NCBI RefSeq assembly: GCF_009866525.1
Contig: NZ_CM020866.1
Coordinates: 1,530,551 to 1,581,017 of the forward strand
Length of the DNA stretch: 50,467 bases
Origin: Spiroplasma poulsonii
GTDB lineage: Bacteria; Bacillota_I; Bacilli_A; Mycoplasmatales; Mycoplasmataceae
Reading direction: 5' to 3'
Shown: in pieces, positions 1,885-50,467 of the stretch
Position numbering within the stretch: position 1 is the stretch's first letter
Layout: every line of letters begins with the position of its first letter
Made by a program: the position numbers and the translations under genes
Notes under the pieces: generated by a model
Database searches by the model: none
The model's input: the letters and a program-made list of their open reading frames with translations, nothing else
What the model was told of the DNA's origin: nothing

Positions 1885-1887
1885 TTG

Positions 1888-5653: not shown

Positions 5654-6997
5654 ATGATGAATGTTGATAACAATTTTATTAATAATTTTATTAATTTATT
5701 ATATATACAGAGTATTGAAATTATTCAACAAAGTTCAGAAGATTATGATGAATGAATTTTTAAAAATTACAAAATTGATAAAACTTTAAAAGAATTTAAA
5801 TATTATAAAGTAAAAGATAAAATTGAAAGAACATTAGTAATTTTAAATGGAAAAATAACTTTTAAAAGAAGAAGATATTATAAAATTAATCCAGAAACAG
5901 GTAAAGAAGAATATATTTTTCCTTTGGATAAACTTTTAGGAATTGAAAAATGACAAAGAATAGATAATTCTGTTAAAGAAAAAATATTATCATTTATTAC
6001 TGAGAACAAAAGATATAAAGATATTTTAGATACTATGGAGCATGTAAAAATTAGTTTAATGACAGTATCTAATATTATGAAAAATGCAAAAACTGACGAA
6101 GAATATTACTTTAATAAAAGTAATAAAAAAATAGATATTCCACACACTTTATATATTCAAATGGATGGTACTTATTTGAAAATGTTAGATTCAACAAAGC
6201 AAGGAAGAAAAAAGATAAAAAAACATACGATAGCATGTACTGTACATACTGGGTATGATGAAGAAAAATATACTGTAAAAAGACCTGTAATCGCAAATAA
6301 ATTAGGTGTTTTTGAAATGGATAATATTCCAGATTATCTTAAAAAAGAAGCAAATTTAAAACCAGTTCTTATAAAATTATTTACTTTAATTGAAACTCAT
6401 TTCAAATTGACACCTAATATTGAAATTATGATTTTAGGTGATGGTGCATTATGGATTAAAAATACTAAAAATTTTATGCGTCAATATTTTCCTAAAAATA
6501 AAATTCACTATACAATAGATAAATTTCATCTTACAAGTAGATTTAAAAAACTATATCCATATCAAAGTAAAAACAAAGAAAATAGAGAAATATATCATAA
6601 AGCAGTTGATAATTTTTATAATGGTAAATATGAGGGATTATTACAGTGTTTAGAAGATAGTAAATCTTTTATAAGCGATGCTAAATTAATTTTTTTGAAT
6701 AAAACTATTAGATTAATTAAAAATAATAAAGAAGGAATTGAAAACCAAACACTATGGAATAATATTGGTTGTGATATTGAAGGTGATATTTCTCATTATT
6801 GAAAAGGCACTATAATTAAAAAAGCTATTTATAGTGAAAAAACTATTAGAAATAAATTAAATGCTAGTATGATGGGATTAAAAAATAAAATTAATTTATT
6901 TAATACTAATGAACAATTGTTAGAAGAAAATAAATTTAATTATTCAGTTAATAATTTTGTAAATAATAATTTACAAAAAAACTTATATTTTTATTAG
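5654..6997 (+). CDS. ISLre2-family (UPF0236) transposase, intact, 447 aa
   Basis: The gene is open from ATG 5654 (a second ATG follows at 5657), with GGAAAGAGG as ribosome site. Family signs are MDGTYLKM near residue 175, ILGDGALWI near 265 and the IDKFHLT block about 25 residues later. These correspond to the conserved acidic and His positions of UPF0236/ISLre2 transposases. The length is normal, with no frameshift and no internal TAA or TAG. A related but damaged copy lies at 28827-30259. I could not define the terminal inverted repeats, so only the gene is given. It sits between the left prophage and rny. Confidence 0.8.
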
Positions 6998-7191
6998 TTT
7001 TATCTAAGAAATTAAATAACTTTAATAAAAATGTATTTTTTTTGTGGAAAAATTTAAAAAAATAGAAAAATATATTGACAATAAAATTAAAAGTAATACA
7101 ATCTAAATAAGTAAGTGGTATATTATTCCACAATTTCTAAGATATTAATTTAAGACCCCAAAATAATTTATACGACCAAAAAATTATTCTT

Positions 7192-8721
7192 TTAAATAAC
7201 AGTCTCTGTGATTCGTAATTCTCTAATTACCGTAATAACAATATCTCCTGGGATTGCCTTTGCTTTTTTAATTTTTTCTTTAATATCAATTGCAATTTTA
7301 TGGGTACGGTCATCATCGCTAATAACTGGATTAACAATAACACGGATTTGACGACCTGCTTGTAAAGCATAAACTGACTGAACGCCAACTACTGTTTGAC
7401 AGATTTTTTCTAATTCAGACATTCGGGCAATATAATTTTCAAGATTATTATTACGACTCCCTGGGCGTGCTGCTGATAATGTATCAGCTGCAGAAATTAA
7501 AACTGAATATGGATTATTAGCAGGAACCTCACTATGGTGTGAAGCAATTGCATTAATAACAATTGAATTTTCACCACATTTTGTTGCTAATTTAACTCCT
7601 AAGGTAACATGGCTTCCTTCGTTGTCAAAATCAACTGCTTTTCCAATATCATGTAATAAACCAGCTCGCATTGCAATCGTTGCATCTAAACCTAATTCAC
7701 TAGCCATTGTTGCTGCTAATTTAGCAACTTCGATTGAATGCAATAAAACATTTTGGCCATAACTAGTTCGATATTTTAAGATTCCTAAATGACGAATCAA
7801 TTCAATGTCCATATTATCTAATTCTAATTCCGCAACAACTTCTTTTCCTGTTTCTAAAATTGTCATTTCAATTTCATCTTGTTCTAATTTGATTGTTTCT
7901 TCAATCCGATTTGGCTGAATCCGCCCATCAATTAATAATTTTTCTAATGTTTTTTTGGCAATTTCACGACGAATAGGATTAAAAGATGAAATTTGAACAA
8001 CATTTGGAGTATCATCAATGATTAGATCAACTCCAGCAGCAACTTCAAAAGTTCGAATATTACGACCATCTTTCCCAATAATTCGGCCTTTCATATTATC
8101 ATCTTCTAAATAAACAGAAGTGGTTGTTTTCTCTACCACAATATTAACAGCATACCGTTCAATTGCACTAGTAACAATACTAATCGCTGTTTCTTTAGCA
8201 TTAATTTTTGCTGTATTCTCAGCATTTTTTAAAAATTCACCAATTTCTTTTTGGTAATGGTCACTTATTTCTTTAAAAAGTACATCTTTCGCTTCTTCAA
8301 GAGAATAACCTGCAACTTTTTCAAGTTGTTGAAGATTATGTTCAACTAGTTCTTGGTAATAATTAATCTTTCCCTGTAATTCTTCTTTTTTACGAAACGT
8401 TTCTTGTTCTTTACTATGTAATACTTCTTCACGTTCAATAATTAAACGCTCTCTATTTGTTAAGAACTTTTCTGTTTCTAAAAATTCTTCTCGTTTACGA
8501 GCTAATTCATTATTCATTTCTTGTCGAATTTGTGCTGCTTCAACTTTTCCATCAGCTTTTGCAACATTAATAATTTTTTTTGCCTTTTCTTCAGCTTGTT
8601 TTATTTTTAACTTCGTTTTTTTAATTAATTTAAATCTTAGATATTTTTCACATAAAAACCCAAGAAAGTAAAAACCAATTGCAACAGCAATAATGGTTAT
8701 TACTCATATAGATATTTCCAT
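7192..8721 (-). CDS. rny: Ribonuclease Y
   Basis: This is a membrane-anchored endoribonuclease that starts bulk mRNA decay. With TGA as Trp the gene extends upstream to ATG 8721, preceded by AGAGGAG, giving 509 aa, the usual length. In order it has an N-terminal membrane helix (about residues 3-22), a long charged coiled coil to about residue 170, a KH domain with GRIIGKDGRN near 212-221, and an HD domain with LLHDIGK near residue 360. It stands alone between mobile elements and has its own promoter region. All expected motifs are present. Confidence 0.95.
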
Positions 8722-11950: not shown

Positions 11951-13016
11951 GACTTCTTGCATTACTTGTTAAAAAATTGCAAATATTTGTAAAAAAGATA
12001 CTAATAGAAAAATATAATTTTAATTAATTATGTTTTTTATTTAAAAATTTAATATTTTTCCACAACGAAAAATTAATTTATTATTTAAATTATTTAATTT
12101 TAAATAAATATTTTATGTTAAATATAATAATTGTAAATTATAAATTGAGGCAATTAAATTAAATCTTAAACCAAATCTTTTTCTTCGATTACGATATTTT
12201 TCTGTAATAATTTTAAATTTTTTAAGAATAGCAAAAATATTTTCAATAATAATTCTCATTTTTGAAACTAGTCTATTATATTGCTTTTGTTCTTTGTTTA
12301 AAGGGTTTTTATTTGTTTTCTTTGTAGGTATTAGAACATTATTGTGATTTTTTTGTATTCCTTGATAACCACTATCAACTATTAATTTGGTATTTTTTAA
12401 AATTGGGATTTTTGATTTTTTAAATAAAGCATAATCATGTTTTTTTCCGAGCGAAAAACTTGTTGCAATAATTTTTTTGGTTTCTTGTTCGATAATTACT
12501 TGTGTTTTGATCGTGTGTTTTTTCTTTTTACCAGAATAAGATTGTTTTTGTCTTTTTTATGGGCGTTGGATTGAAGTTTCGGTAGCATCAATAATAATAG
12601 TTTTATCATTAAAATAATCATTTATTAGTGCTTTTTTACCAGCAAGTTGTTGAAAATCAGAGTTTTTAATTAAAATATCTTCAATTCACTTAATATTACG
12701 ATAAAAATTAGCCTCACTAATATCAAAACTTTTACCAAGATGAAAATAAGTCTGATATTCTCGTCAATATAATAAAGTCATCAATAATCTATTTTCTAAT
12801 GATAATTTATTAGTTTTACCACCTTTTTTAAATTTTTCTATTTCAGCAACTTTTAAAATATCTAACATTTTATTAAAAGTGGATTTTTTTATTCCTGTTA
12901 ATCTTAACCATTCTCTATCATTAAGAGTATTAAATTTATTATTGTTCATATTTTTATGTCCTCATAAATTATATTTTATAATAATATTTTAATAAAAAAG
13001 GGTATCGCAAGAAGTC
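11951..13016 (-). mobile_element. IS5-like element copy 1, 1066 bp
   Basis: GACTTCTTGC inverted ends flanked by TA (11949-11950 and 13017-13018). It is one base longer than the sister copies because the slippery A7 run has become an ATA6 sequence. It is inserted in the GH31 gene: the flanking bases join to restore the hydrolase reading frame (EFRQYYHFLYCKTAYDAS). Confidence 0.92.
12113..12949 (-). pseudogene. IS5-like transposase with a destroyed frameshift site
   Basis: ATG 12949 opens the same ORFA as in the other copies. The slippery site reads CGC CCA TAA AAA AGA, so ORFA stops at TAA 12557-12559. The one-base length change places ORFB in the same frame after that stop. No slip can now join the halves, and only readthrough would give full-length protein. 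I consider this copy inactive in cis. The amino acids otherwise follow the sister copies closely. Confidence 0.85.
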
Positions 13017-13080
13017 TAATATAAAAAATGATAATATTGGCGAAATTCTTCTCCCGTTAAACCGTTATTAAAATAAGCAT

Positions 13081-13100
13081 TGGGTGGGATTGGGTGGGAT
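13081..13100. repeat. 10-bp tandem duplication in the GH31 gene
   Basis: Two perfect copies of TGGGTGGGAT lie back to back. Removing one restores the frame from DGIPPN into AYFNNGLTGEEFRQY, so the duplication is a loss-of-function mutation rather than an ancestral feature. Confidence 0.9.
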
Positions 13101-14416
13101 ACCATCCCCATAATCTGGTTTAACAAATCGTAATCCTAATTTAAATAATTTTTGCAATTCATCTTGATATCACTTAACAGCAGCTGGATTAGTAAAATCA
13201 ACAATACCACAATTTGTTTGATAAGTTTCGGTTCCTGTTAGCGGATTGGCATATGAATTATCATTTGTTATTTTTACTAAATAATTATTTTTCAAAGCAA
13301 TTTGTCAATTCACACTATTATCAGCTTATAAATAATGGTTAATTCAAAAACAAACGGCAATGTTTTTTGTTTTTAATTGAGCAAATAATTCTTGAAAAGA
13401 ACCAAAAGCATTTTCGTTATACTCAAAGTTACAACTTTTTGTATAGCGGTTTTCTAATCATTTTGGGTCCAAACAAATAACATCTAATGGGAAATTAACT
13501 TTGTTGCTTTTTTCAATTTCTGCTCACAATTCAGCTTTATTATGATAATACAAGCGATTACATCATATCCCATAACTCAAATCAAGGATTTCTGTTGGTT
13601 TACCAGTTAAGTCGGTATACTGACTAATCAGTTCCTTCATTGTTGACCCCGTAAAAAAATAAAGGTCTAAACAGGATTCAAAACTAAGGAAACTAATAGC
13701 ATCAGTTACTGGCGAACCAATTTCAAAACTAGTTTGTTCACCAGTATTAACTAATACTCCTCATTTTTTTGTTGAATAAAATAACGGCAATCCGTTATAT
13801 GCTAAATCATGATTTGCAACACAAGAATTATCACTATTTCAAATCGTTGTCTCAATTCCATTTTTAACTAAAAAACGAAATTTTTCCCCCAACCCATATA
13901 TTTTTTCATCATTCATTAACCAAAACGACATAAATGGTTGTCATTCATTACTTTTACCAATTTTTCAACCTAATGGGGGCGTACGATAATTTTCAAACAT
14001 TTCATATCCTTTACGAGTATTGGTTTTAAATTTAACAACAGCATTGCAATCAAGTAATGTTATTTGAAAGGGTTCCTTTTGAATTACCAACTTTTCATTC
14101 TTTAATAATTTTATTTCAAAATAATTAGGATGATTAATTAAATCAATTTTCTTAAGATTTAATGAGTTTAAATGCTCAGCAAATCGACTATTATTTATCT
14201 TTTTTTGATAATACTGTAAGTTAATGATTCCATTAGAATATAATGTTATTTTTAAAGTTGATTTTTGTAAATTACTTAATGTAACTTCAAGATATAAACT
14301 ATCATCTTGCCATCAAAAATCACTAATTTTTCTAACAACAGCATAATCATAGTTAAGATCAAAAAATGGTTTCTTTTGGGGAAATGAATATGCTAATAAA
14401 TTCTTATCTTTAATCA

Positions 14417-16335
14417 TTAATATTTCTCCTCCCCTTCTGCAATTTGATCACTTAAGTATTCATCAATTTTTTCTTTATAAATGCTTACTTTTGGTCCATA
14501 AACAATTTGATAATACTTTCCTTGCTTAATAACCCCAATCGCACCTGTTTCTTCTTTAAATTTATCAACCACTTTTTTATCATCTTTAACAACAACTCGT
14601 AATCTAGTCATACAACAATCAACTTCTTCAATATTTTCTGCCGTTCCAAGTAAACTAACAATTTTATGAATTATTTTGTCATTACCCCCCCCCGTTTCTT
14701 TTTGATTAGGGGTCAAGGAAAAAACAATATTAACTTCTTCACCAACACCAGGAATATTTGGTTTTAATCTTTTTGTTAACCCATAAAAGATTCCAAAGTA
14801 AATTGCGAGAAAAAGAGCACTAACTAAAATAAATCAACAACCATCTAATCATAAATTAGTTTTAATATTGTCTGTAATTAATGTTGTTGGTCCTAATACT
14901 AAAAAGTATTTCATAATAATTTCAATTGCTCCAAAAGCATGAATTCGCATCGGAACTAAATCAGCCATCCTAAAAGCCATTCCTGTCATTACCGCGTGTG
15001 CTAAATATAATAATGGTGCTGTATACATAAAAATAAATTCAATTGGTTCTGTCACACCGGTTAATAAGCAAGCTAATCCCCCAGAAATATAAATTGATTT
15101 ATATTTAACGCGATTAGTTTTACTAATTGCATACATCATTCCAATTCCAGCACCAATTAATGACCCTGTTGAAGTAACCATTTGTCCAACTTTAAAACGC
15201 ACTGGTTCAAAAGCGTTCATTACAATTTGATAAACATCATTAACCCCCGTTGAATTTGGAACAATATTATTTGCATATTCCGTTCAATTATTTTTAACTA
15301 AATTTAACGCTGTAATTCAGGTATATAACATTTGTTCTTGTCCTTCTGAAACTAAACTCTTTTTATCAACTAAATGCTCAGCAACAGTATAATCAAAAAA
15401 AGCTACCAGTTCTTATTTTGTAAGCGGATAATTTTCAAATAAAGTATCTGAGAAAGTATTAACACTAGTATAATCTAAAACCCCACCTAATGAAGTATAA
15501 TTCATTGGAATGGTAATCATGTGATGTAATCCAAATGGTAATAGTAAACGTTCTAAAAAACCATAACCAAAGGGGATAATAAACGGAATTTTATTATTTA
15601 AAGCAATACTCTTTCCAATAACATTTATTCCCGTTTGAATTAATGGTCAAAATAAAGACAAAGTAATTGCGATTGGTAAAGAAATTACAATTACCATTAA
15701 TGGTACAAAACGTGGGCCATTAAAAAAGATAATGCGTTAGGTAACCGATTAAAAGCAAAAAATTTATTGTAAACCCCAGCTCCAATAAAACCAGTAATAA
15801 TTCCTCCTAATGCGTCGAAGCGAAGCGAATAAACGCCTTCTTGATTACTAAAATAATCTTTTTGGTTGGTTCATTTTCCCCCTAAAATATAATTCATAAA
15901 CTCAGTTCCATCAGTTCCTGTTCTTGTTACAAAAAATGTTGCTCCAACACTTAATAATGTTAAATAAGCAATTGCTCCAGCAAAACAACCCCCTGCTCTG
16001 TTTTTAGCTCATAATCCACCAATGGCAATGGCAAACAACAATCCAATATGACGAAATGGCATCCAACCAATTGTCTCAATAATTGTTCCAATATGGTTGG
16101 CTACTTTGGTAATACTCGTAATTTGGCCAAAACCTAATGGTCCAATAATCTTACCAACAACAATAAACAATCCGGCAACTGGCAAAATTGCAATCATTGT
16201 TAAAATTGCTTTAGCAAATTTATTAATTCCAATTTTAAATTGTGAATTCTTTCCCCCTTCAAATGTCGCTTTAATTTTGTTTTTTAATTTCATAAAATAG
16301 TTTTCTTTTTTCCTTAAATTTTCTGATTTTGCCAT
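14417..16335 (-). pseudogene. Broken PTS EIICB sugar transporter gene (glucose/alpha-glucoside superfamily)
   Basis: The gene starts at ATG 16335 with GGGAG upstream. The EIIC domain has about ten hydrophobic segments and the family block LTGVTEPIEFIFMY near 15030-15070. The C-terminal EIIB domain carries the phospho-cysteine motif CMTRLRV near 14600. Two lesions break it: an A6 run at 15722-15727 is one base short (restoring a base gives SFFNGPRFVP), and an in-frame TAA lies at 15413-15415 (PLTK*ELVAFF). A G9 run occurs in the C-EIIB linker without shifting the frame. The substrate would be a glucoside, judged from the GH31 partner. No EIIA domain is present, so one would be supplied in trans. 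Confidence 0.85.
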
Positions 16336-16380
16336 TTTTGATTTCTCCCTTCAATTTTAATTTTATTTGCCAAAATAAAA

Positions 16381-16408
16381 ATAAGAACTTGTCGTAACAA
16401 GTTCTTAT
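16381..16408. promoter_or_regulatory. 12-bp perfect inverted repeat: operator and/or terminator
   Basis: The arms ATAAGAACTTGT and ACAAGTTCTTAT surround CGTA. The core TTGT-N4-ACAA has the layout of known GntR/HutC-type operators such as the TreR site. It overlaps the gntR stop codon and lies about 45 bases upstream of the PTS gene, where an operator for the local regulator would be expected. On the minus strand it is followed by a T-rich stretch, so it could also act as a terminator after gntR. Confidence 0.55.
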
Positions 16409-17070
16409 TAAAAATAATTTACTTTATAAAATTCAAATTTTTCAGGTTGATATGTTTCTTTACTACATTCAACAACTTCATGATATTCAGAAAAAGTAAT
16501 TGAATATTTTTTCGGGATATATGTTTTAAAATTTAACTGCAAAAACTTTTTGTCATAGATATTAGGTAATTCTAAGCCTAAATATTTCAGGTTATTAACT
16601 AGCGTAATATTACGAGAGTTAATATAAGATAATAAACTATCTTCACAATCTTTAAAATTAAGATTTTTTAAAATTGTTTTATTAACTCAAATAATAGAAT
16701 ATTTTTTAATCTGATCATTTTGATAACGAACTTTAATTAAACTCATAAAATCATTATCCGAACATTGATATGTATCAATAAAATATGAATCAAACGGAAT
16801 ATTAACAACATATAATTTATTAACTGCACTGTCATATTTTTTTGAAAACGATATTTCTGTGCTTCAAAAGGCTTGATTTAAAGTAAAATAACCTTTCCCC
16901 TGCAGACTATAAATCATATTTTCCCCAATTAACTTTTTAAATGCATCACGAACAGTCGTTCGACTAACCTGATATTGTTTCATCAGCATTGCTTCTGATG
17001 GCAATTTTAAACCTGGCTTGCCCTTAATTATCATTGTTTTTAAATTGTCTTCTAATGCTTTACTTCTCAT
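16408..17070 (-). CDS. GntR-family (HutC/TreR-like) transcription regulator, 220 aa
   Basis: An N-terminal winged helix-turn-helix lies at about residues 5-65 (LPSEAMLMKQYQVSRTTVRDA, then LQGKGYF). It is followed by a UTRA-like effector domain (SFSKKYDSA through SITFSEYHEVVEC). The gene reads through TGA-Trp and is intact, although the operon it presumably controlled (PTS EIICB and GH31) is broken. It would repress sugar uptake in the absence of the phospho-sugar. The candidate operator lies at its own 3' end, upstream of the PTS gene. Confidence 0.8.
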
Positions 17071-17101
17071 AATATTAATTTTAAATTGGAAATCAATAAA
17101 A

Positions 17102-17147
17102 AATACTTTTTCTTTTAAAATTAAAAATTTTTAAAAGAAAAAGTATT
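17102..17147 (-). terminator. Terminator after the ferritin-like gene
   Basis: Perfect 19-bp arms (17102-17120 and 17129-17147) with an eight-base loop begin two bases after the ferritin stop. T-rich sequence follows on the minus strand. It separates the ferritin transcript from gntR. Confidence 0.75.
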
Positions 17148-17148
17148 A

Positions 17149-17673
17149 TTATGCATGTGGACTAAATGGATCAATAACTGCTAAAGTATCTGGTTCTTCT
17201 TTTGCTCCCATTTTATCATCAATATTATAATAGCTATTATCTGACATTTTAATTCAATCAATAATATCTTTTATTTCCGCTAATTCTTCATAAAAATCAA
17301 TTATAAATCAATCATAAAATTTATAAGTTACTAAATCACCAACTTCTTGCGCATGATGTGCTAATTTATTGGTTAAATCAGCAAAATATGCCCGTTTTGT
17401 TTGATAGGTTTCCATTAGTTCAGTAATATTTTTAACATTATGATATTCTTCAGTAATATTTTTTACTTCATAATGACCATCACGATCTAATACAAAGTTC
17501 ATAATTCGACGTTGATGTAAAATTTCGTCTTGGGCTTGAACTTGAAAATAATGACTAAAACCAGGAAAACCTAATTTTTCAGCGGCTGAACTTAAATTAT
17601 AACAAAAAAATTGCATTTTAAGATGTTCATTAATATATTGTTGTAAGTCTTTTTCCATCTCTTTTGTTAACAT
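17149..17673 (-). CDS. Ferritin-like protein, 174 aa
   Basis: This is a four-helix ferritin-like protein, probably for iron storage or detoxification in the cytoplasm. The start ATG 17673 is chosen because AGGGGGAG lies eight bases upstream; an upstream GTG would add 11 unlikely residues. The QAQDEILHQRR block (E50, H53) matches the helix B iron ligands. The helix A and helix C glutamates of the ferroxidase centre are not obvious: the nearest positions carry Gln (KMQFF; ETYQTK), and the helix D EQ.EE motif reads YEELAE. Oxidation activity may therefore be weak or absent. The C-terminus (EEPDTLAVIDPFSPHA) is an extension. A single gene with its own terminator. Confidence 0.75.
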
Positions 17674-17715
17674 AACTCTCCCCCTCTTTCTACTTCCATT
17701 GTACACTTTTTATTG

Positions 17716-19578
17716 TCAGTTTAATTTAAAACAAACTTTTTTATTAAAATAATAAAATTGGTTTTCTTTAAATTTGAATTTTGATACTTCAATTTTTTTA
17801 GCATCTGGGCTAATTTTTAATTCATCAAAATTAATTAATTCATTAAGATTAAGGTTAAAAATAGTTGTTTTCTTCTCATTAATATTTGGATAAAACTTAT
17901 TCCAAATTACTTTAATTTGCGTTGCTGTTTCATTATGATGAGCAAGATCATTTAATAATGTTCCAAATTGTTGATTTGATAATGTTAAATATTGATTATT
18001 ATTTGGTTTAGTTAATTTTAACGTTGCATGTTTTAAAACTTTGCTTAAATCAACTTTATATGTTTGATTAACAACTAAATCATCAATAAACTTATTGTTT
18101 TTGGTTGGTAACGCGACAATTTTAAAGCTATAATTAGTAATTTCATTATTAGTTAAAGTTTGATCATTGGCTTTAAAATATTTTAATTCAAAATATTTAT
18201 CAAAAGTTTCATCTTGATAACCTAGGAATTCCATTACTTTTATTTTAATAATCGTTGGTAATTTATCAACATAGTTGTCTTCTCCAATAACGATATTATT
18301 AGTTAAATATTTATCAAATTTTCAAGTTTGTAAACTTTCAAAATCAACATATTCTTTTTCATAAATAAAACCATTTTTACGGAATTTTCTTGGAGCTCCT
18401 AATTGCGCATAAACTGCTAATACTAATCCCAATACTGCAATTAAAATTAAAACAGCATAATCTAATTTCCGATAATTTTTAATAAATAATGTTGAGACAT
18501 CATCACGTTGTGTTTCAAGAACAAAACGAATTAAATTTCATAAAAAGAAATAAAAACCAGTTTGCACTCCACTACGTGTTATTGAATAACGACCAGGATT
18601 ATTTAATTTTGTTAATTGGGCACTATCATTGTGTCACCATCTTTTAAAAGTATTACCTAGTTCTGATTTCGATTTAGTAATTGATACTTTTGGCATTTCA
18701 TCTAATTGTTTTTGCGTTGGCACATAATTAAAATACGCTTTATCCCAAACTTCTTTTCATGTCATTTTATCTTTTTTAATATATTTCCGATTAAAGAAAT
18801 GAATAAAATTATATTTTAAATCAAAAGGATATTCTTTTGAATCTTTTTTCCATGGTTTTTTACTAAATAATTGACCAGCAAACGGAATAAAGAAAGTAAT
18901 GAATAATCACGCTAAAAAGTTGAAGAACGATTCATATAAGAAGATTGGTTGACGAAAGACAATTTGTCCGCCAACTGTTTCTGGTGATAAACCATCTCAT
19001 TGTCATAAGTTATCACGAATAAATGCTGGTAATCAACGTAATGAATCATAAGAAGCAACACTCCCCAATAATTCGTGATTAAAGAAATTACCTCAACGCC
19101 CTAATACTTGTCCCAATAAAATATTTGGAATAATCGCATCAGTGTAAACTCAAAGAGAAACTTTTGCTTTTCGTCCAACAATCCCAAAGACAATTAAACC
19201 AGCAATAGTTCCAAACAGAACACCACCATGAATACTCATTCCTGCTTTTCAAAAGGCAAATAATGATCAAAATGGTACGGCTCCTGGTTCTGTTACTCAT
19301 AGATTATGAATATCATTATTAACTTTTCCAAAAAAACTAGCACCAAATAATGAAAAAGGAATAATAACAAAAATTGACCAAATTAAAGGTTCAATTGGAA
19401 TCTTCTTAATTTTTAACCGAATAAAACAGACTAAAACAGATAAAATCATTCCCGTTGTAATAAATACAGCATACATATGAACTCAACCACCATATGTTGC
19501 TAAAATATCATACGGCGTATTCGTTGGGGTAATTCAATTCGGAGAAGGTGGACCACTTGTTAATAAGATGTTACTCAT
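17716..19578 (-). CDS. lgt: Prolipoprotein diacylglyceryl transferase with long C-terminal extension, 620 aa
   Basis: Lgt transfers diacylglycerol from phosphatidylglycerol to the lipobox cysteine of lipoproteins, the main surface proteins of wall-less bacteria. Seven hydrophobic segments are present. The family signature GRWGNFFNHE lies at residues 160-169 and the HGG motif near 117-119. The protein is about twice the usual length. Between the membrane segments it has a charged insert (QLFSKKPWKKDSKEYP onward, about 100 aa). After the last membrane segment it has some 200 soluble residues (KNGFIYEKEYVDFESL to the end). ATG 19578 follows AAGGAG. The frame is unbroken with TGA as Trp. Confidence 0.88.
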
Positions 19579-41547: not shown

Positions 41548-42153
41548 ATGACAACAAAAGTTACTGGAATTGTTATTAATAAGCAAAGTTACGATGATGA
41601 CAGTGAAATTATAACGGTTTTTACCAAAGAATTAGGTAAGTTAGCTTTTTTTGCTCCGGGTGTTTGAAAAATTACTTCGAAAAATCAATATGCGGTGCAA
41701 TGGTTAGCAACTAGTGCATTTGAAATATTTTTATCATATCAAGCAAATAAATTAAGTAAGTTAAAAACAGGAAATTTGTTAATAACACGAATTAAATTAA
41801 CACAAAATTATTATGATTATTTACTAGGGACATTGCTTTGTGAAATTACCGAACAAGCTGTTGAAGAACGTTCTGCTGATTTAAAACTATATGATTTATT
41901 AGCAACAGCATTAGATAATTTAGTTGCTTGAGAAGATAACTTAAGTGTTGTGATTGTTTTCATGTTACAAGTTTTAAAATGGTATGGATTACAATGAAAT
42001 CTAACGATGTGTAAACGTTGTGGGGGAAAACATAATATTAAAACAATTAGTTTTATTGAAGAAGGATATATTTGTAAAAATTGTTATTTACCAACAGGAT
42101 TAGGTCGTATAAAAAATATTGGGGTTTTGGAAAAAAACTCGGAAATTGAATAA
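41548..42153 (+). CDS. recO: DNA repair protein RecO, short C-terminus
   Basis: RecO loads RecA at gaps with RecR. The N-terminal OB fold (MTTKVTGIVINKQSYDD) is followed by helices and the four-cysteine zinc site (CKRCGG and CKNCY near residues 152-178). The protein is 201 aa. Usual family members continue for roughly 50 more residues after the zinc site, so this one may be truncated. It ends just before a terminator and the right prophage. ATG 41548 is six bases after the era stop. Confidence 0.88.
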
Positions 42154-42165
42154 GAATAATAAATT

Positions 42166-42191
42166 AAACCATTTACTAAAATGGTTTTTTT
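42166..42191 (+). terminator. Terminator after recO
   Basis: AAACCATTT and AAATGGTTT form a nine-base-pair stem with an ACTA loop, followed by seven Ts. It ends the pyrH-recO run. Confidence 0.85.
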
Positions 42192-42433
42192 ATTTGTAAA
42201 ACCAAAATTATTAATTGATTCAGAGAAAGGACAGCATCTTAAATTCTTAAAATAGAAACTTTTTACACAACTTTCTGATACCCTCTTTAAGTTGTTTACA
42301 CATTTATAAATATCTTAGAAATTTTTACAAAGTGTACCTGTTTTTTCTCCTAATTTAAGGTGTTGTCTTTTCTTTGTTTCAGTTAATTAGTTTGTTAATA
42401 AATAAAAAAACTTAATAAAAGAAGGAGTAAGTA
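42192..42433. other. Left edge of the right prophage, early regulatory region
   Basis: No gene is visible. T-rich sequence contains several TTTACA/TTGTTTACA-like boxes (about 42261-42330), a plausible place for the early promoter. The attachment end of the prophage should lie here. An exact att core cannot be identified without the other end. Confidence 0.4.
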
Positions 42434-42673
42434 ATGGAAATTAATAAACAACAAAAAATATGTGATGTTATTGATTGCTATAAATCAATATCATTCATTA
42501 CCAAAGAATTTTTATCAAATAAAGTTTTATGAACTTGTGAAAAACATAAAAATTTATTAAATCATACAAAAGATAAAAACCAAGAGTGGTTTTATAAACG
42601 TTTAGAAAATTCAAAAATTATCTTTGATTATAAAACTGGTTTTTTAAAACTTTGATTTTATAAAACAACTTAA
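42434..42673 (+). CDS. Phage early protein, 79 aa, unknown
   Basis: ATG 42434 with GAAGGAG upstream. Soluble and Lys-rich, with two cysteines in the first third (KICDVIDCY) and one later (LWTCEKH). Two TGA-Trp codons. First gene of the early block, directly before the structured non-coding region. I do not recognise the family. Confidence 0.55.
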
Positions 42674-43160
42674 TGCAGAGTGGAACGGTTATTTTAAATA
42701 ACTAAGTGTTTTTATTCCACAGGAGGCGGTCTAGCACAGCGGTAATCAGTCCGGAAATAATAGACGCTTTAACAAGCGATAGTGGTGATAAGTGCGCGGT
42801 CAACATCGAACCACAATAAACAAAAGAGATGGTCACTTTATAAATAAATTTGCGATAGATATTACTTCTTAGAAGTGACAGCGGTTTAAAAACCACAAAG
42901 TCAGCATTAGGCTCTTCAAGGTGCAAGTAGATTTATTTTAAAAACTGAACGCTTTGACCTGAAATGGTGCGGGTGAAGAGAGAGAAAACTCTCTGGCTAC
43001 AAAAACAAAAAACAACTGTCGATTATTTAACTAACAACATACCGCCACCTCTCACCCACAGCGAAGCGGATGGCGTAGTAAATAAAATAGATAAATACAA
43101 TACTTATATAACTAATTCTCGCTTTGGCACTTTCACTTGGTAGTGAGTGCCAGCGAGTTA
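42674..43160 (+). ncRNA. Candidate large structured phage RNA (about 480 nt)
   Basis: This block is coding-free and clearly richer in G and C than the DNA around it. Visible stems: GTGGAA/TTCCAC (42680-42685 with 42715-42720) enclosing GTTATT/AATAAC; GTCACTT/AAGTGAC (42832-42838 with 42873-42879); AGAGAG-AAAA-CTCTCT (42979-42994); a long-range GGGTGA/TCACCC (42971-42976 with 43052-43057) around it; and a three-part closing hairpin at 43118-43157. Size, phage context and strand resemble the ornate phage RNAs known as ROOL and GOLLD, but I cannot assign it to a class. It could instead be a multi-structured leader. Confidence 0.55.
43118..43157 (+). other. Long hairpin closing the structured region
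   Basis: CTCGCT pairs with AGCGAG, GGCACT with AGTGCC and CACT with AGTG, around a TGGT loop, with two TT bulges. No U run follows, so it is not a standard terminator. It ends 35 bases before the next gene. Confidence 0.8.
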
Positions 43161-43191
43161 AAAAATAGGAAAAATAATTTAGGAGGTAAAT

Positions 43192-43308
43192 ATGAAAAAG
43201 TTAAATAAAATTTGTCTTAAACAAAAATATTGAGGATATTGCTCAAAATGCAATCAAGAAAACAAATTACAAGAATTAATGTTTAAAAGTTATTCAGTAT
43301 CATTTTAA
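43192..43308 (+). CDS. Phage mini-protein with Cys pair, 38 aa
   Basis: ATG 43192 with a strong AGGAGG site. The sequence contains CLKQ...YCSKCNQ, with CSKC and a further Cys, suggesting a small zinc-ribbon-like fold. A 12-codon frame at 43312-43350 follows and may be debris or a leader. Function unknown. Confidence 0.5.
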
Positions 43309-43363
43309 GATATGACTGATGAACATTGAGCATTAGGGAAACAAAATTAGGAGGAATTAAATT

Positions 43364-43552
43364 ATGAATAAAAGATACGTATTAATAATGAAATATAATA
43401 ATTTGTTTGATAAAACAACTATTTTTAAAACAGATTTTTTTTATACATTAGAAGAAGCGAGGATTACTGCTAATGTTGAAAATGAAAATCATTGATTAAC
43501 AACTATTATTGATTTAGAAGATAGCAATATTAAATGACAAGGAGATAAATAA
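43364..43552 (+). CDS. Phage hypothetical protein, 62 aa
   Basis: ATG 43364 with GGAGG upstream. Hydrophilic, beginning MNKRYVLIMKYNN, with no motif recognised. Three bases separate its stop from the next ATG, so it belongs to the early operon. Confidence 0.6.
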
Positions 43553-43554
43553 TT

Positions 43555-43692
43555 ATGTGAAAAGATGAAAATGGTTATGTTTATACAGAAGAAGATTTAT
43601 TTAATTTAGCATTAGATGAATGTTATTCAGAAGAAAGTGCTTATGAATATATTGATAATTTAATTAATGAAATGGAATTAGAGGAAATTTAA
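43555..43692 (+). CDS. Phage acidic mini-protein, 45 aa
   Basis: ATG 43555, preceded by GGAGATAAATAATT. Very acidic (Glu/Asp rich) throughout, with TGA-Trp as second codon. Small acidic early phage proteins often act as decoys or inhibitors, but nothing here shows that. The next gene starts three bases later. Confidence 0.55.
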
Positions 43693-43694
43693 TT

Positions 43695-44396
43695 ATGGAA
43701 GATTTAAAATTAAATAATGAAGTTAAAAATATTACTTATCCGTTTTATTTAAAAGGAAATAATTTTAAAGAATTAAGCTTAAAAGCATTAACAATTAAAA
43801 AGTGAATTGATGAAAATGGACAAGAATTAGCAGAATTTATATATCGACAACAAGCTTGATTAATAAATGGAGAATATAAATCACAATCACTAAAAGATTT
43901 AAAATTAGTAGTTTCAAAAATTGATTATATTTTTAGAGAACCATTAGAAATAATAAAATCTTTTAAAGATGAATTAAATTTTATTAGAAAAGATATTTTA
44001 AATTTAGAAAATAATATTAAGAATAATCATGATTCTTTAAAAAATAGTGTCATTAATATTCAATTTCAAAAACAAAATAAAATTATTGAAACTCATAAAA
44101 AAGAGCAATTTTTAGAAATTAAAAGTATAGCAAAACAAGAACAAGAATTAAAAATTATTACTAGTAATTTTCGGAAAGAAAAATTATTAATTAAAGATAT
44201 TGAGGTTATTGGTATTAATGATGATTTTTTACAAAATGCTGATAAATTAGAACTTATTAATCTTATTAAAAATTATTTAACTGTTGATGAACAAATTGTT
44301 AAAAATGAAATTAAAGATCAATGAGATAGTAATAAAGATATTAATTTAATTGGGGTTAAAGGTATTAATTTTAAAATAAATAAAGGAGAAAAATAA
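43695..44396 (+). CDS. Phage coiled-coil protein before recT (DUF1351-like), 233 aa
   Basis: The N-terminal 90 residues are globular. A long Lys/Glu-rich coiled coil follows (about residues 95-170, KDILNLENNIKNNHDSLK). The C-terminus is a folded segment ending KGINFKINKGEK. Composition and position immediately upstream of recT resemble DUF1351 proteins, which accompany RecT in other phages; this is a tentative match. ATG 43695 with GAGG upstream, one base before the recT ATG. Confidence 0.6.
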
Positions 44397-44397
44397 C

Positions 44398-45327
44398 ATG
44401 ACAAATATTGTAGAATTTTTAAGAACAGATAAGGTAACTGATTGAATAAAAAGTAAATTTTCTAATGAAAATGAAATTGCAAGATTTAAAAGTAATATAA
44501 TTGCAATATCAAATAGTAATGAATTATTACAAAAAGCAGATCCAAAAACAATTATGACTGCTTGTTATCAAGGTGTTTTATTAAATTTACCAATGGAAAA
44601 ACAATTCGGTTATGCTTATGTAGTACCATATAATACAAAAATAACAAGAATTATTAATGGTCGTGAAATCCAAGAATGAATTAATCAAGCCCAATTTCAA
44701 ATGGGTTATAAAGGTTATATTCAATTAGCCCAAAGAAGTGGCCAATATTTAGATATGTCAGTATCAGATGTTAGAGCAAATGAATTAATAAATTATGATC
44801 GTTTAAAAGGTACTGCTTTTAATTGAAATCAAAATGAAGATGAACGAGAAAAATTATCAATTATAGGTTATGTAGCATATTTTAAAATGGTTAATGGTTT
44901 TGAAAAAACTTTATATATGACAAAAGAGCAAATGGAAAATCATTTTATGAAATATTCTAAAACTTATGCTAAAAATAAATCATTTTATATTGCTAGTTTT
45001 GATGAAATGGCCCTTAAAACAGTATTAACATCATTATTAAGAAAATGAGGTATTATGTCAGTTGAATTACAACAAGCATATAAATCAGATCAAGCAGTTA
45101 TTACAACTAATGATGAAAAGATTTATATTGATAATGATGCTACTTTCATCCAAAATAATGGGCATATTAACGATGAAACTTTATCAAATAATATAAATTT
45201 AAATTATAATACCCCACCTAATGATGAAATAGTGTACATAAACGATAATGTAGTTAAAGAAGAAGATATATCAAATGTAGTACCAGTAGTTAATAATAAC
45301 AATGATGAAGAATGAGCCAATTGATAA
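44398..45327 (+). CDS. recT: RecT-family single-strand annealing protein
   Basis: 309 aa. Anneals complementary single strands during phage recombination and repair. The conserved core includes IMTACYQGVLLNLPMEKQFG (about residues 49-68), VVPYNTK, MGYKGYIQLAQRSGQY and the terminal ALKTVLTSLLRKWG. The last 80 residues are acidic and low in complexity (Asn/Asp rich), as in many RecT tails, and probably bind partner proteins. ATG 44398 follows AAAGGAG. No RecE-type exonuclease is visible next to it. Confidence 0.88.
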
Positions 45328-45812
45328 AAATAGGTATTGACCCATCAGGAACTGGTACTACGGCTATTGTTGTTTATAAAAATAATAAATTAATAGATAA
45401 ACAAGAATTTACAAATAAAGGCTGAAAAGAACATTATGAATTTATTATAAATTATTTGAAAAATGAAAAACTATTTGGGAAAATATTATCAAATAATCAT
45501 AAACTAGAATATTTAATTTTTATAGAAAATTGTTTATATACAAATGCCAATGGCTCAAAAGATAGAGATGATTTATTGAAATTATTAGGTTCATTAGAAA
45601 CGCAAGGATATATTGCTACTATTTCACCAAAACATACAAAATCAGTTGTTAAAAATATGGAAAATTTAAGTAAATATAATGATGGTTATATATGAAAATA
45701 TGAAAAAGATGTTAATTTAACTTATCAATATGGTAAAAGTTGAAAATATAATAATGAAAAAATAAGTAATCATTTACGAGATGCAATTATTATTGCTAAT
45801 TATGAAAGTTAA
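45312..45812 (+). CDS. RuvC-like Holliday junction resolvase (phage), 166 aa
   Basis: RNase H-fold junction nuclease. Candidate catalytic acids: D10 in IGIDPSGTGTTA, E72 in IFIEN and D157 in NHLRDAI. It overlaps recT by 16 bases, so annealing and resolution are coupled. Size matches phage RuvC-like proteins. The start is within the recT frame. Confidence 0.8.
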
Positions 45813-45815
45813 TTT

Positions 45816-45992
45816 ATGAAACATTCATATAATCAAAAAACAGGAAAATATTATTCTTGTAAAATTCGGAATATAAATGTTTACTTAAATGAAAATGAAG
45901 AACAAGTTTGAAATGAATTAAATTTTAATACTTATTCGCAACGAATTGAATATCTTATAAACTTTTATATAACACACAATAAAGAAAAATAA
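45816..45992 (+). CDS. Phage hypothetical protein, 58 aa
   Basis: ATG 45816, last gene of the early operon. Basic N-terminus (MKHSYNQKTGKYYSCK) and a helical C-terminal part (QRIEYLINFYITHNK), which could be a small ribbon-helix-helix or HTH protein. No secure match. A terminator follows directly. Confidence 0.55.
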
Positions 45993-45994
45993 AA

Positions 45995-46019
45995 AATAAC
46001 CAATTAAGGTTATTTTTTT
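45995..46019. terminator. Bidirectional terminator between early and late phage operons
   Basis: AAATAACC and GGTTATTT form an eight-base-pair stem with an AATTAA loop, flanked by A and T runs. It lies between two convergent phage operons. Confidence 0.85.
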
Positions 46020-46305
46020 AAATATTATTTGTTAATTGTCTAATGGCATCTTTTTGTGCTTGTTTTTTATCATTAACTTTAACTTGTTTTTTAACATTTT
46101 TAATTTGACCTGTTTTTAATGCTAATTCTGTTGCATAATCAGGTCCTCGTAAATGTTTTTCGTGGGCAATAACAGCAGTTCTTAATTCTCTGATTTCTGC
46201 TTTATATTTTTTAATTTTTTTAGCAGATAATCCTAGAATACCAAGACTACCCATTCCACCCGCACCCGCTAACACAAGTAAAGCAATCATTAATGTTTCA
46301 TTCAT
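46018..46305 (-). CDS. Phage holin-like membrane protein, 95 aa
   Basis: One N-terminal hydrophobic helix with a Gly-rich end (residues about 5-27), then a strongly basic tail with a coiled-coil tendency (KKIKKYKAEIRELRTAVIAHEKH). It is the last gene of the late operon, a usual place for lysis or release functions. The wall-less host makes an endolysin partner unnecessary, and none is seen nearby. It could instead be a structural membrane protein. Confidence 0.55.
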   Translation of the reverse strand: MNETLMIALLVLAGAGGMGSLGILGLSAKKIKKYKAEIRELRTAVIAHEKHLRGPDYATELALKTGQIKNVKKQVKVNDKKQAQKDAIRQLTNNI

Positions 46306-46424
46306 TTTATTTAATTCCTTTCTTATTCTTACTCAAACAGTGGCCATCTATCCTTTCAGAACAAAATAATTTATAAATTAAACTATATAACCACCCAAAA
46401 ATATCAACCGCCCCTATATATAGT
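46306..46424. other. Short late-operon gap
   Basis: About 120 bases between the holin-like and membrane-protein genes. AGGAAAGAAT just upstream of 46305 serves the holin-like gene. Nothing else is apparent. Confidence 0.4.
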
Positions 46425-47057
46425 CTATTTTAAATTTAATTCTTTGTTATTTTCTTCTTGTTTTTGTTTTTTAATATTTTCATTTTGTATATTTTTAAAT
46501 ATTTCTTCTGTTATGCCATCTAAATTATTTCATTGTTTTGCTAATCTTGGTTGAATAACACGCGGATTAATCCGACAATCTAAACAATGTCTTAAATGGT
46601 CTTTTTTTCATTTTGATTTATCAATTCAAATGATAATTAAAGAAATTATTAAAGTAATTAAAGGTAATATTGTAAATACTAATCCCATTTTAGATATTTT
46701 TAATCTTGGTATATCAATTTTCATATCTACTTTTGGTTTACTACTAGCAACAAATATGCCCTGAATTCCATACGTAAATAAAGGTGTTAATAAAATAGCA
46801 ATGCCATTACCTCAATATTGACCATAATTATATCAATTAATATCATCTTTAATTGCATTAATCATTCCATATTCTAACCAACAATTTAATGCTAAAAATA
46901 TCAATGTATAAAAACTAACTACTCAACTACGAATTTTATATTTTCTTTCTCATTCTCTAATATCTTTATGAGTTCAATTATAAGTTGGAATAGGGTCTTT
47001 TTTAAATCAATTTCAAGGTAACGCCCCCTTTAATCAAGTTGTTTTATCTTGCTTCAT
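46425..47057 (-). CDS. Phage membrane protein, 210 aa, unknown
   Basis: ATG 47057, near the fibre stop. Tryptophan-rich N-terminus (several TGA-Trp), then two or three hydrophobic segments (residues about 45-65, 80-105, 130-155). A Cys pair (RHCLDCR) is followed by a charged Lys/Glu tail. Possibly a lysis, ejection or superinfection-exclusion protein. No family recognised. Confidence 0.6.
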
Positions 47058-47059
47058 AA

Positions 47060-48262
47060 TTAACTCACCAATTTTCTTTCAATTTTTAAATTAACTATAT
47101 TTACATTATCATAAGAACTAATAAGACCATTTGTGTCAATATACCAACCTGAAACACCTTTACTATATGATACAACAATTCCACAACCAATATCAAAATC
47201 TTTAAAAGTTTCTACAAACATATATGGTAAAATTGAAAATTGACATCATATTTTATATTTAAATTTAGAACTATCAAAATCTTTAATTTGATATTCAGTT
47301 GCTGGTTTAAAATCACTAGTATCTACAAATTCTCAATCATTACCAACACTAATAGAAATATCACCATTACCTAATAATGAATTACCATTAATAGTTTTAA
47401 TATTTTCCCCACTTACTAATTTATCTTGTTTAAGAATAATATCTTGTGATGTTTTTACAATATATTTATCATCTTGCTTATCAATATAATCTTTATTTAA
47501 ATCACTATCTTTAATACCATATGATGGAATATCACCACTTTGTTTTGCTTTTCAGACATTATCTTCATAATAAATCGTGTTATTATCAAATGGAACTATT
47601 AATTTAATATATTCATTATAATCAATTTTAGAAAAATCATTAATAATTGGATAAGTAATATTTATTGAACCATCTGTTTGCAATCGCTCTTTTAATCAAA
47701 ATAATAATGTTGGATAAAATGTTTTTTTAGTAATATATTTATATTCTTCTTCTCATGGATGAGAATAGTTTCCTAAATGATAATTATACGGTCTAGATAC
47801 CGTTTTACTAGATATAATATCAATTATTTCACCTGCTAATTTTAAAGCATTTTTAACATCACGAGTAATATTTTCATTTGCTTCTGGGTCATTAGTTTGT
47901 GAATATGCTACACCACCTTGTGAAAATGAAGCACTACCAGTTAAATCATTAACTCCTTTTGGTAAATATCAATTTATAACTGCTAATAAACAAGCCGATT
48001 GAATATAACTTAATCATTTATCATATTCAATTAAACCAGTATTATCTTTTTTTACTCAAGGAAACAAATCTTTTTTATTAATTTTATCTGAAATTGTCCC
48101 ACCTGATAATCTATCCATTCATAAACTAGTTTTTAAAATAGCATTATAAATTAAGTTATCATTACAAGCAGATTGCTTTCTATCATTAATAGGTTGTCAA
48201 AGTTTACTTTCTTTCACATCTTCAACTGTTATAAATAACAAATTACTTAAATTATTTTCCAT
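47060..48262 (-). CDS. Phage fibre protein, 400 aa
   Basis: N-terminal helical head (residues about 1-120, similar in character to a capsid-binding part), a linker, and near residues 287-303 the fibre motif TINGNSLLGNGDISI. This motif occurs in trimeric tail and head fibres where it forms a small beta knot. The C-terminus (GWYIDTNGLISS) looks like a receptor-binding tip. It would contact the Spiroplasma membrane surface. ATG 48262, with an AGAGGTG site inside the preceding gene. Confidence 0.75.
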
Positions 48263-49169
48263 ATAAAACACCTCTTAATTGATTACGATATTTATTTTTT
48301 AAATTACTTGGCTTATAACTATTAACTCTTGTTTTTGTTTTCTTAATTGTTTTGATAGTTTGATTAGTTTTGTAAAACATATTTTTAACTGGTGATTTAT
48401 ATAAATTCTTAATATTTTTAACATCACTTTTTCGTTCTCGATACCATTTTTTATTATTAATTTCACCAGCAAAATTAAAATTAAAATGGCCAATCTTTAA
48501 ATTATTAATAAACTTTTTAATTTGTTGTAATTTTTGAACTGTTGGTAATGTTAATTTAGTAGTTCCTTTGGGATATTTTTCTTTTAATCCTCTTGGCAGT
48601 CTTTTTTTAATATAATTTCTTAAATGACTAGGTAATCATTTTCTTAATCAATAACGTCAAAATAAAGTACCCGCATTAGAAACGGCATTACTTAATAATT
48701 TTCAAATTTCAACTGGAACACTAGGATAAACATAGGGACCATAAAACTTCGGGTGTTTTGCTGTTTTTGTATATATTAAAATAGTTAAATTACCTGTTAA
48801 AGTTAATTTATTTGTAATATTAAACATACCACTATCAAGTCAACTACTATTTAAAGGTTGTCAATTAGTATTTAGATAATTTTCTTTTTTAAATTGTTCT
48901 CTATTTTTAATATTATTATCTTTTTCTAATTGACTTAATATTTGTTGAATTTCTCTTTTATGACCCTTTTTAATTAAATCTAAATAAGTAAATGGATTTA
49001 ACCACTGATAAATATCTTCAATCTTATTTGTAATTTTTTGTAGCGGATTAGAATAATATGAAGCAAATTTGTTAACCTTATTAATTAAATTAACAAATTT
49101 ATTTATTATTGATTTATTACCTAAATTCTCTGCTAATAAAGTTAAAATTCGTAATATTAATAAGTTCAT
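48252..49169 (-). CDS. Phage structural protein, 305 aa, unknown
   Basis: ATG 49169. The N-terminal 30 residues are hydrophobic and leucine/isoleucine rich (MNLLILRILTLLAEN). The rest is strongly basic (Lys/Arg rich, for example KKRLPRGLKEKYPKG), suggesting DNA or membrane contact, such as an internal or ejection protein. It lies between the capsid and fibre genes and overlaps the fibre start by 11 bases. No family recognised. Confidence 0.6.
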
Positions 49170-49175
49170 TGTTTA

Positions 49176-50420
49176 TTAAGTATTTTTAATTACGACATCA
49201 ATTGGATTTGTTTGACCAGTAGCGTTGTTTTTACCCTCAATCTGAACTGAAATTGCTTTATCATTTGTAATATCAATTGGTCAATCTTCACCCTTACTTT
49301 CAATAAAGTAATCATAATCATTTTCAGTTAAAGAACTATCTACCGCTTTTACTGCTTTTAAAACGACAGCTTTAAATTGTGGTTTTAATTGTTCGATTGT
49401 TGCTTTTGTTGGGTCTGTGACATGAATAGTTGGTTTATCTAATTTATTAATTTTACTAATATCAATTTTATTTGTTGTTGGTTCATTAATTACATAATCA
49501 ACTGGTACTCTAAATGTTTTATTTAAATTATTGTAAGCTGCTGTTCTTTCTTCAATTGTTGGTTCTTTTTCTAAAATAATTTTACATGTTTTTGGATATA
49601 AAATTGTTGGTGTTGCATATTGTACTTTACCAATTCATTTAGGGTTAGCAGTATCATTATCTAAAACTTGTTGAATAGTATCCATATTAATTGGATATGC
49701 TCATACTTGTTTATTAATAATTAAACCACTTACATTAGTAAAATTATAACCTTTATCACGGTTAACTTGTCCTTTTGTATATGTTTTTTCTAAATGAAAA
49801 CTTTTTGATACAGGAATTCCCATTGCGGTATTTTCATATAATTCACCATTAACCATTGCTTTTAATTGAGCTTGTGAACCAATTACTTTTAAATAAGCCG
49901 GTGTTAATCCTAAATATGCTCTTCGTCCTAAAACCATAAACATTTTATCAGTTGGCAATCCAAAATATAAATTACTAATTTGATTAGTTAATTCAATCAA
50001 AGTTTCATTTAATGTAAAGAATGCCTTATTTGCATCATCAGCATTTTCTGCTGTATAACTACGAAATGGAATTACTTCATATTGACCATCTGCTAAACAA
50101 TAATCATAAATAGCCTGAATTAATTCACATTCTAAATTAACAAATTTATTCTGTACAACACTAGAAATAGCATCAGCAATAACACCATTTTTAATATTTT
50201 GTTCTATTAATGCTAAATCAAAAGCCTCATTCATTAATTTTAAATTAAATCTTTTATCAATAGGTACTGGAATTCTTGTTAATCCCATTGTTTGATTTGC
50301 TCCACCATTTGGTAATGAATAATCATTTTGTCATACCACACGATGAGTTAAATTATATAATGCTTGTCCTGCATTAGGTAATCAAGCAACTTGTTCGGCA
50401 GTTGCTGTTGCATACTGCAT
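49176..50420 (-). CDS. Major capsid protein (probable), 5' end unresolved
   Basis: The longest late protein here, with MGLTRIPVPIDKRFNLKLMNEA, long helical segments, FGLPTDKMFMVLGRRAYLGLTPAYL and a C-terminal KVQYATPTILYPKT region typical of HK97-like subunits. The C-terminal 100 residues (IHVTDPTKATIEQLK, then NDKAISVQIEG) may be a decoration or Ig-like domain. ATG 50420 (MQYATATAEQ) is the first ATG with an open frame. A TAA lies 15 codons upstream, yet the neighbouring frame reads VNALLRGPY. A TA insertion near 50440 may have shifted the frame, with the true start right of the window. Confidence 0.65.
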
Positions 50421-50467
50421 AATACTTGCATATTCATTATATAAGGTCCACGCAATAAAGCATTAAC

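Follow-up and report, generated by a model that had tools for sequence, protein, structure and literature searches.

What does a block of G+C-rich DNA encode when it stands between phage genes and offers no credible protein? We address this question for positions 42674-43160 of a stretch of Spiroplasma chromosome 50,467 nucleotides long (hereafter the window). A sequence-only reading had proposed that the block is a candidate large structured phage RNA inside an early operon, with a size and context like those of ROOL or GOLLD. Here we consider in turn where the block lies, how its product would fold, where it recurs and what it may do.

The block and its place in the prophage

The window enters a prophage at about 42100, and this prophage (42100-50467) matches positions 125-8488 of Spiroplasma phage MaM-2019a clone NSRO-P2 (OL689226) at 99.8% identity in blastn. 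The block is placed between an ORF stop at 42673 and an ATG at 43192, both on the + strand. The block has 38.8% G+C and the window 26.3%; of 1000 stretches of 487 nt that were sampled, not one is as rich. This bears out the compositional difference noted in the sequence-only reading. The features of the locus are:

42100-50467, + strand: left part of the block-carrying prophage, running off the window (blastn and annotation of the phage record)
42434-42673, + strand: 79-aa ORF 5' of the RNA, not found in several other copies
42964-43143, + strand: 59-aa ORF annotated in the phage record (UXX42146.1), judged spurious
43192-43308, + strand: first early gene, for a CxxC zinc-ribbon-like protein (by eye) of 38 aa, shorter than that of relatives
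43364-45992, + strand: early operon, with two small ORFs, a 233-aa ORF, RecT, a RuvC-like resolvase (the record's annotation) and a small ORF

The first early gene stops early in this copy, and the longer C-terminal part seen in relatives is still recognisable downstream. The 59-aa ORF, the only one of note within the block, runs uninterrupted at full length in just two loci (L021 and L022) out of 63 and is partial, gapped or stopped in the others; on this ground we reject it as a gene, and the earlier judgement that the block holds no credible ORF stands. Nor did the 63 loci reveal a protein with conservation in a single frame. Folding energy is unremarkable on the + strand (z -1.39, with 7 of 100 shuffles as good) and slightly better on the - strand (z -2.42, 3 of 100), so that energy by itself would not have revealed structure in the block.

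The window holds other mobile DNA as well. By eye, the prophage ends look like inverted repeats, and the phage record closes with a UPF0236 transposase gene. At 42100-42153 the left prophage end falls within the 3'-terminal part of a recO-like ORF (41548-42153; gene name by eye), so that the last codons of this ORF seem to be phage-derived. Positions 1-7178 come from the right-hand side of another copy of this phage: record 12218-19148 corresponds, with a gap, to window 1-7047, and record 1-123 matches window 7048-7178. Hence the window holds the ends of two prophages, and by the record offsets the UPF0236 transposase gene of this second copy would be expected at about 5657-6997. Between 9438 and 28405 there are several repeats of about 1 kb, in both orientations and at about 99% identity, which are probably other mobile elements.

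Fold of the RNA and its compensatory changes

The RNA consists of a core at about 42778-43000 with two pseudoknots, preceded by a 5' domain and followed by an optional 3' module. In the first pseudoknot, the loop of the second hairpin supplies bases to the first stem; in the second, the loop of a long hairpin is joined to downstream sequence. The elements in the window copy are:

42674-42777, + strand: 5' domain type I, with helices 42680-42685/42715-42720, 42688-42693/42697-42702, 42729-42733/42761-42765, 42740-42742/42751-42753 and 42766-42769/42774-42777
42778-42841, + strand: core pseudoknot 1, in which stem 42782-42786/42810-42814 (GUGGU/ACCAC) crosses the hairpin 42790-42794/42834-42838 and 42804-42807/42828-42831
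42815-42827, + strand: A-rich loop of pseudoknot 1
42842-42980, + strand: core pseudoknot 2, with hairpin 42842-42851/42929-42938 and apical stem 42904-42907/42921-42924
42912-42917 with 42975-42980, + strand: loop pairing of pseudoknot 2 (CUCUUC with GAAGAG)
42855-42903, + strand: optional hairpin insert inside the core, absent from many copies (alignment A1)
42957-42968, + strand: small core hairpin (42957-42959/42966-42968), the weakest counted helix, with 75.8% of cells paired
42981-42992, + strand: sequence-variable hairpin on the 3' margin of the core, identified by eye and outside the counts
43043-43157, + strand: optional 3' module, with hairpins 43043-43075 and 43118-43157, which occurs also behind the unrelated type B block described below

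To assess the core we used 53 copies (46 unique, thinned to 36 at 97%), of which alignment A1 uses 32; L054, L060, L061, L062, L083, L092, L093 and L097 were left out of the extraction, and L101 and L102 were skipped. In L060 and L061 a 1.3-kb insert, by eye an insertion sequence, interrupts the core. The structure, drawn by hand, comprises 38 pairs, and 94.7% of their cells are paired in the 32 cores, against 40.7-46.5% with slid partners; it was drawn from the very sequences on which it was scored, and this gives it an advantage over the slid versions. Double changes occur at 16 pairs compared with a shuffled mean of 7.6, and none of 500 shuffles reaches as high; further pair types are less exceptional, 36 of 500 shuffles being as high. 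Examples of covarying pairs are GUCGU/ACGAC with GUGGU/ACCAC, AAGUC/GACUU with AAGUG/CACUU and GUGUC/GACAC, and CUCUUC/GAAGAG with UCCUUC/GAAGGA and UCUCUC/GAGAGA. Counted by parsimony on a tree built from unpaired columns, the core shows 33 double changes (null mean 6.5, maximum 15 in 200 shuffles); the shuffles keep the relatedness of the copies, and recombination between copies may inflate such counts of independent change.

The 5' domain is exchangeable. Other copies have at this place an alternative, type II domain with different helices in front of the same core, as is seen in two copies from one genome: L095 (type I) and L096 (type II) share 188 of 190 core positions, and a forced alignment of the 75 nt upstream of the core matches at 47 of 65 positions. 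Both domains covary. Type I has nine pairs with double changes (shuffled 5.6; 2 of 500 as high, and 29 of 500 for further pair types) and 15 double changes by parsimony (null mean 3.2); its second helix is given six pairs and not seven, because the innermost counted pair leaves a one-base loop in the window copy. For type II, the corresponding values are 13 pairs (shuffled 4.3; 0 of 500) and 13 double changes (null mean 1.8), with two of its helices, one redrawn after only 3.6% had paired and one added, fitted to the data. Two false instances were removed from the instance set.

For the 3' module (alignment A6, 27 of 33 references used) the covariation evidence is mixed. Cells with double changes number 7 against 1.8 shuffled (1 of 500 as high), and none of 500 shuffles equals the covariation score; pairs with double changes number 4 against 1.7 (34 of 500 as high), and parsimony counts 3 double changes against 1.2 (23 of 200 shuffles as many). 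The module is absent from L085, L107 and L108, and occurs without the core in L093 and partly in L097. Its hairpin at 43117-43157 is strong and local (z -4.46). This is what the sequence-only reading had described as a 40-nt helix closing the block; it closes nothing.

Compensatory changes thus exceed the controls in the core and in both 5' domains, so the covariation expected among homologues from Spiroplasma prophages is present, as judged by pair counts and a parsimony count and not by R-scape. The block is structured, as proposed earlier, but the helices that covary, the two pseudoknots included, are mostly others than those named. A proposed long-range GGGTGA/TCACCC pairing is rejected as not conserved, GGGTGA occurring in 2 of the 32 aligned cores. 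Reading on the + strand is favoured because G-U cells (48) exceed A-C cells (14) in that sense; counted by pairs, the signal is weak (12 pairs with G-U, 10 with A-C). We conclude that the block almost certainly encodes a functional structured RNA.

Distribution and exchange at the operon head

A search with the DNA as query gave 21 matching pieces in the genome that contains the window and hits in 10 of 60 genomes of the family, although those in G004 and G016 are taken as chance because the covariance model does not confirm them. That core model (R1; 178 positions, from model alignment A2 of 16 sequences, with the pseudoknot stems left out) gives 108 matches, including two G025 copies that an insert splits into two matches each, in 8 of the 60 genomes, all of the window's genus Spiroplasma. 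Under stricter Infernal filters, which may miss weak distant relatives, the search across the order returned the identical eight among 298 genomes (nine candidates scored per genome), and that across the class matched 3 of 395 (six candidates scored per genome), one class-wide match (24.4 bits, E 0.0075) being judged chance. Within the samples searched, the RNA is confined to Spiroplasma, with no relative outside the genus. The DNA pattern of pseudoknot 1 occurs in one viral contig and at 33 loci of a species-genome collection, which all belong to two Spiroplasma phoeniceum genomes, in listings that may omit near kin of the window. Related pieces are also found on four S. citri plasmid records. 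One of these (NZ_CP047430.1, L281) is a 22.3-kb circular record with a terminase gene and a partial RNA match at about 5589-5974, possibly a circular phage genome. The prophages that carry the RNA are about 19 kb long.

The RNA keeps its position. The sequence-only reading had placed it between early phage genes, inside the early operon. In the genus at large, among 81 merged early RuvC-like loci, 69 have either the core described above (type A, 63 loci) or an unrelated block (type B, 6 loci) 1.6-5.5 kb upstream on the same strand. We fetched seven of the 12 loci that lack an RNA call: a truncated type B is present in one, another has immediately upstream what by eye is an insertion sequence, and a third is rearranged; in two more, little of the early operon could be recognised, and the last two belong to the short-leader prophages of genome G018 described below. 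A site resembling a ribosome-binding site (RBS) with an ATG lies within 750 nt of the core start in 61 of 66 RNA instances, and in 36 of the 66 the DNA within 900 nt codes for a zinc-ribbon-like motif, with types A and B alike. The spacer between the core and the first start codon varies among copies, and recognised phage genes are sparse around many of the copies. A simple scan, which may miss A+T-rich terminators, found no terminator-like site on the + strand in 42100-46100, and promoter scans did not rise above chance (22 found, 34 expected; in a second scan, 11 and 9.8).

Type B is a block of about 270 nt that replaces the core in some prophages (L093, L097). It stands behind the same upstream terminator as type A, a promoter-like stretch (by eye) precedes it too, and the tail downstream of it in L093 agrees with that of L080, a type A copy, at 63 of 64 aligned positions. 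There are at least 19 strong matches to type B in four genomes, with 12 candidates scored per genome; besides L093 and L097, the block is seen in L197-L214, and the truncated type B of L275 is not among the candidates scored. In alignment A5 (13 of 15 type B references used) the block is conserved; its folding energy is ordinary (z +0.96) and no Rfam family matches it. At most, type B is a candidate structured RNA. By eye, crossing complementarities can be read in L093 (CTTGTT/AACAAG and CGATTTT/AAAATCG).

A third arrangement is seen in L276 and L277, two near-identical G018 prophages whose early region looks intact and has only a short hairpin leader. At this place in L276 (3640-3900, reverse complement) and L277 (3480-3740), the short leader has a long closing hairpin (z -2.94). 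Because these two prophages have nothing more, the lineage can dispense with the large RNA. It is possible, though on balance improbable, that the phages hold a dedicated early-operon RNA slot with interchangeable, unrelated structured RNAs (type A with its two 5' domains, type B and the G018 hairpin), an exchange of whole cassettes that resembles phage immunity or specificity regions. If this were true, the slot would hold a phage RNA device of a new class. In any case, the alternative occupants of one slot amount to a natural swap experiment.

In a preprint on S. glossinidia (PMC12408004), 20 prophage regions are reported and assigned to other phage families, many prophage genes are without detectable expression, and only three non-coding RNAs are annotated. 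A literature search by title and abstract, with a coverage that lacks most subscription journals, returned no paper describing an RNA in these phages.

Possible functions and known phage RNAs

As no terminator-like site was found between the RNA and the early genes, the RNA is most simply read as an early-transcript leader that acts in cis. Transcription would run on the + strand from the left end of the phage, so that in this family of Spiroplasma dsDNA phages the RNA would lead the early (recombination) operon and be co-transcribed with its genes. The conserved two-pseudoknot core, with one of two exchangeable 5' domains and the optional 3' hairpin module, would fold on the nascent early transcript and, as an RNA-only leader, may set elongation, stability or translation. 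We regard this as the most likely mechanism, at somewhat less than an even chance. It is consistent with the 69 of 81 RuvC loci that have type A or B upstream on the same strand, with the 61 of 66 instances that stand ahead of an RBS-like site and an ATG, and with the way in which type B in L093 replaces the core between the same terminator and a tail all but identical to that of L080. Against it, the promoter scans gave nothing above chance, the variable distance from core to start argues against direct control of one RBS, two G018 prophages manage without the large RNA, and many copies lie amid few recognised phage genes. There is, moreover, no early-operon terminator found that an antiterminator would have to overcome. 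If the action is in cis, this would be RNA-only control of early phage genes.

Almost as likely is action in trans after processing: the RNA may be cut from the early transcript by host RNases and persist as a stable particle or as a binder of host or phage factors, in the manner of ROOL or GOLLD. Its size, pseudoknots and modular build would fit such a role, the replacement of the core by an unrelated block between the same flanks suits a self-contained product, and the spacing to the first gene is variable; moreover, the core is found where few reference phage genes are recognised (e.g. L166, L176 and L181). However, no terminator or separate gene boundary is seen, nearly all instances (61 of 66) precede an RBS-like site and ATG, and the RNA has neither an Rfam relative nor a tRNA in the window. 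A role in replication is unlikely, although RNA II of ColE1-type plasmids, a replication primer, offers an analogue. The transcript would then serve as a primer or form an R-loop at a phage origin near the left end, where the RNA indeed lies, with its exchangeable 5' domains. No initiator is annotated in the full OL689226 record (RecT, RuvC and transposase are named) or in the first 5955 bases of OL689227 (SSB, helicase/nuclease, ERF and RuvC), and the related DNA on the 22.3-kb circular S. citri record, which has a terminase gene, would also suit an origin, but the many phage genes of unassigned role could hide an initiator.

Three further explanations carry little weight. A packaging RNA tied to the terminase, as suggested by a place near the end of a phage genome of about 19 kb, is very unlikely and is set aside, as the distances of core and large terminase subunit (TerL) disagree: in L180, TerL is 46% identical to that of a window-like copy and yet the core at the same place (L098) is 76% identical, while in L184 TerL is 81% identical and yet the core (L100, same place) is only 63% identical. 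We give equally little credence to an element that works as DNA (a transposition end, a packaging site or a single-strand fold); the block does lie near the left end of an element that codes for a UPF0236 transposase at its right end, but the compensatory changes include crossing stems, G-U cells exceed A-C cells in the + sense, and copies differ, by eye, in how far the block lies from the phage end. Least probable of all is that the block is chance or a misread coding sequence; for all the unremarkable + strand folding energy and the annotated 59-aa ORF, the core and both 5' domains covary and only 2 of 63 loci have the ORF intact.

Returning to a leader that acts in cis, known parallels are RNA-only antitermination leaders such as HK022 put and EAR, which are about 70-125 nt long and act in cis. 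Leaders of this type act on the elongating polymerase, and downstream terminators must be read through; put stands at the head of phage early operons. The position of the Spiroplasma RNA would fit a cis-acting RNA leader of this kind, but no downstream terminator was found on the + strand in 42100-46100. Antitermination in particular is therefore disfavoured, with the proviso that A+T-rich terminators may escape the scan. The phi29 pRNA, the partner of a packaging ATPase, is encoded near the end of a phage genome of about 19 kb, as is the Spiroplasma RNA; the two differ in size, and in L180 and L184 the relatedness of the Spiroplasma RNA does not follow that of the terminase.

The nearest known RNAs in kind are ROOL and GOLLD. 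Membership in either is unsupported: Rfam matched no family in the window at gathering score, and permissive scans of the block and seven homologous loci gave nothing beyond chance and neither of these RNAs. Searched against the whole genome, the ROOL model (RF03087) had 0 matches at E<=10, in a search in which no positive control rang, and the GOLLD model (RF02032) had only an 8.7-bit match elsewhere (E 6.7); the latter also rings in 5 of 14 control genomes, in none over the cut-off. ARAGORN found no tRNA in the window. Hence the original proposal of a large structured phage RNA is supported, and membership in ROOL or GOLLD is not. What emerges is a family of pseudoknotted RNAs with more than 100 matches in eight Spiroplasma genomes and no match in Rfam. 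Sequence variation already fixes much of its secondary structure, and comparisons within the family offer a compact way to ask what large phage RNAs do.

ROOL forms a homo-oligomeric cage and is an abundant transcript. One account (PMC12286853) describes ROOL as large, pseudoknotted, carried by phages and prophages, and often, not always, near tRNA islands, and GOLLD as an RNA of phages and prophages with a conserved 3' part and a less conserved 5' part. Compared with ROOL as described there, the Spiroplasma RNA is likewise large, pseudoknotted and phage-borne, but has no model match and no tRNA in the window, and it precedes an early operon. It differs from GOLLD in length (about 300-480 nt versus more than 800 nt in many GOLLD members) and again in the lack of a tRNA in the window. 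In its architecture, a conserved core behind exchangeable 5' domains, it resembles GOLLD in part, but it adds an optional module at the 3' end as well.
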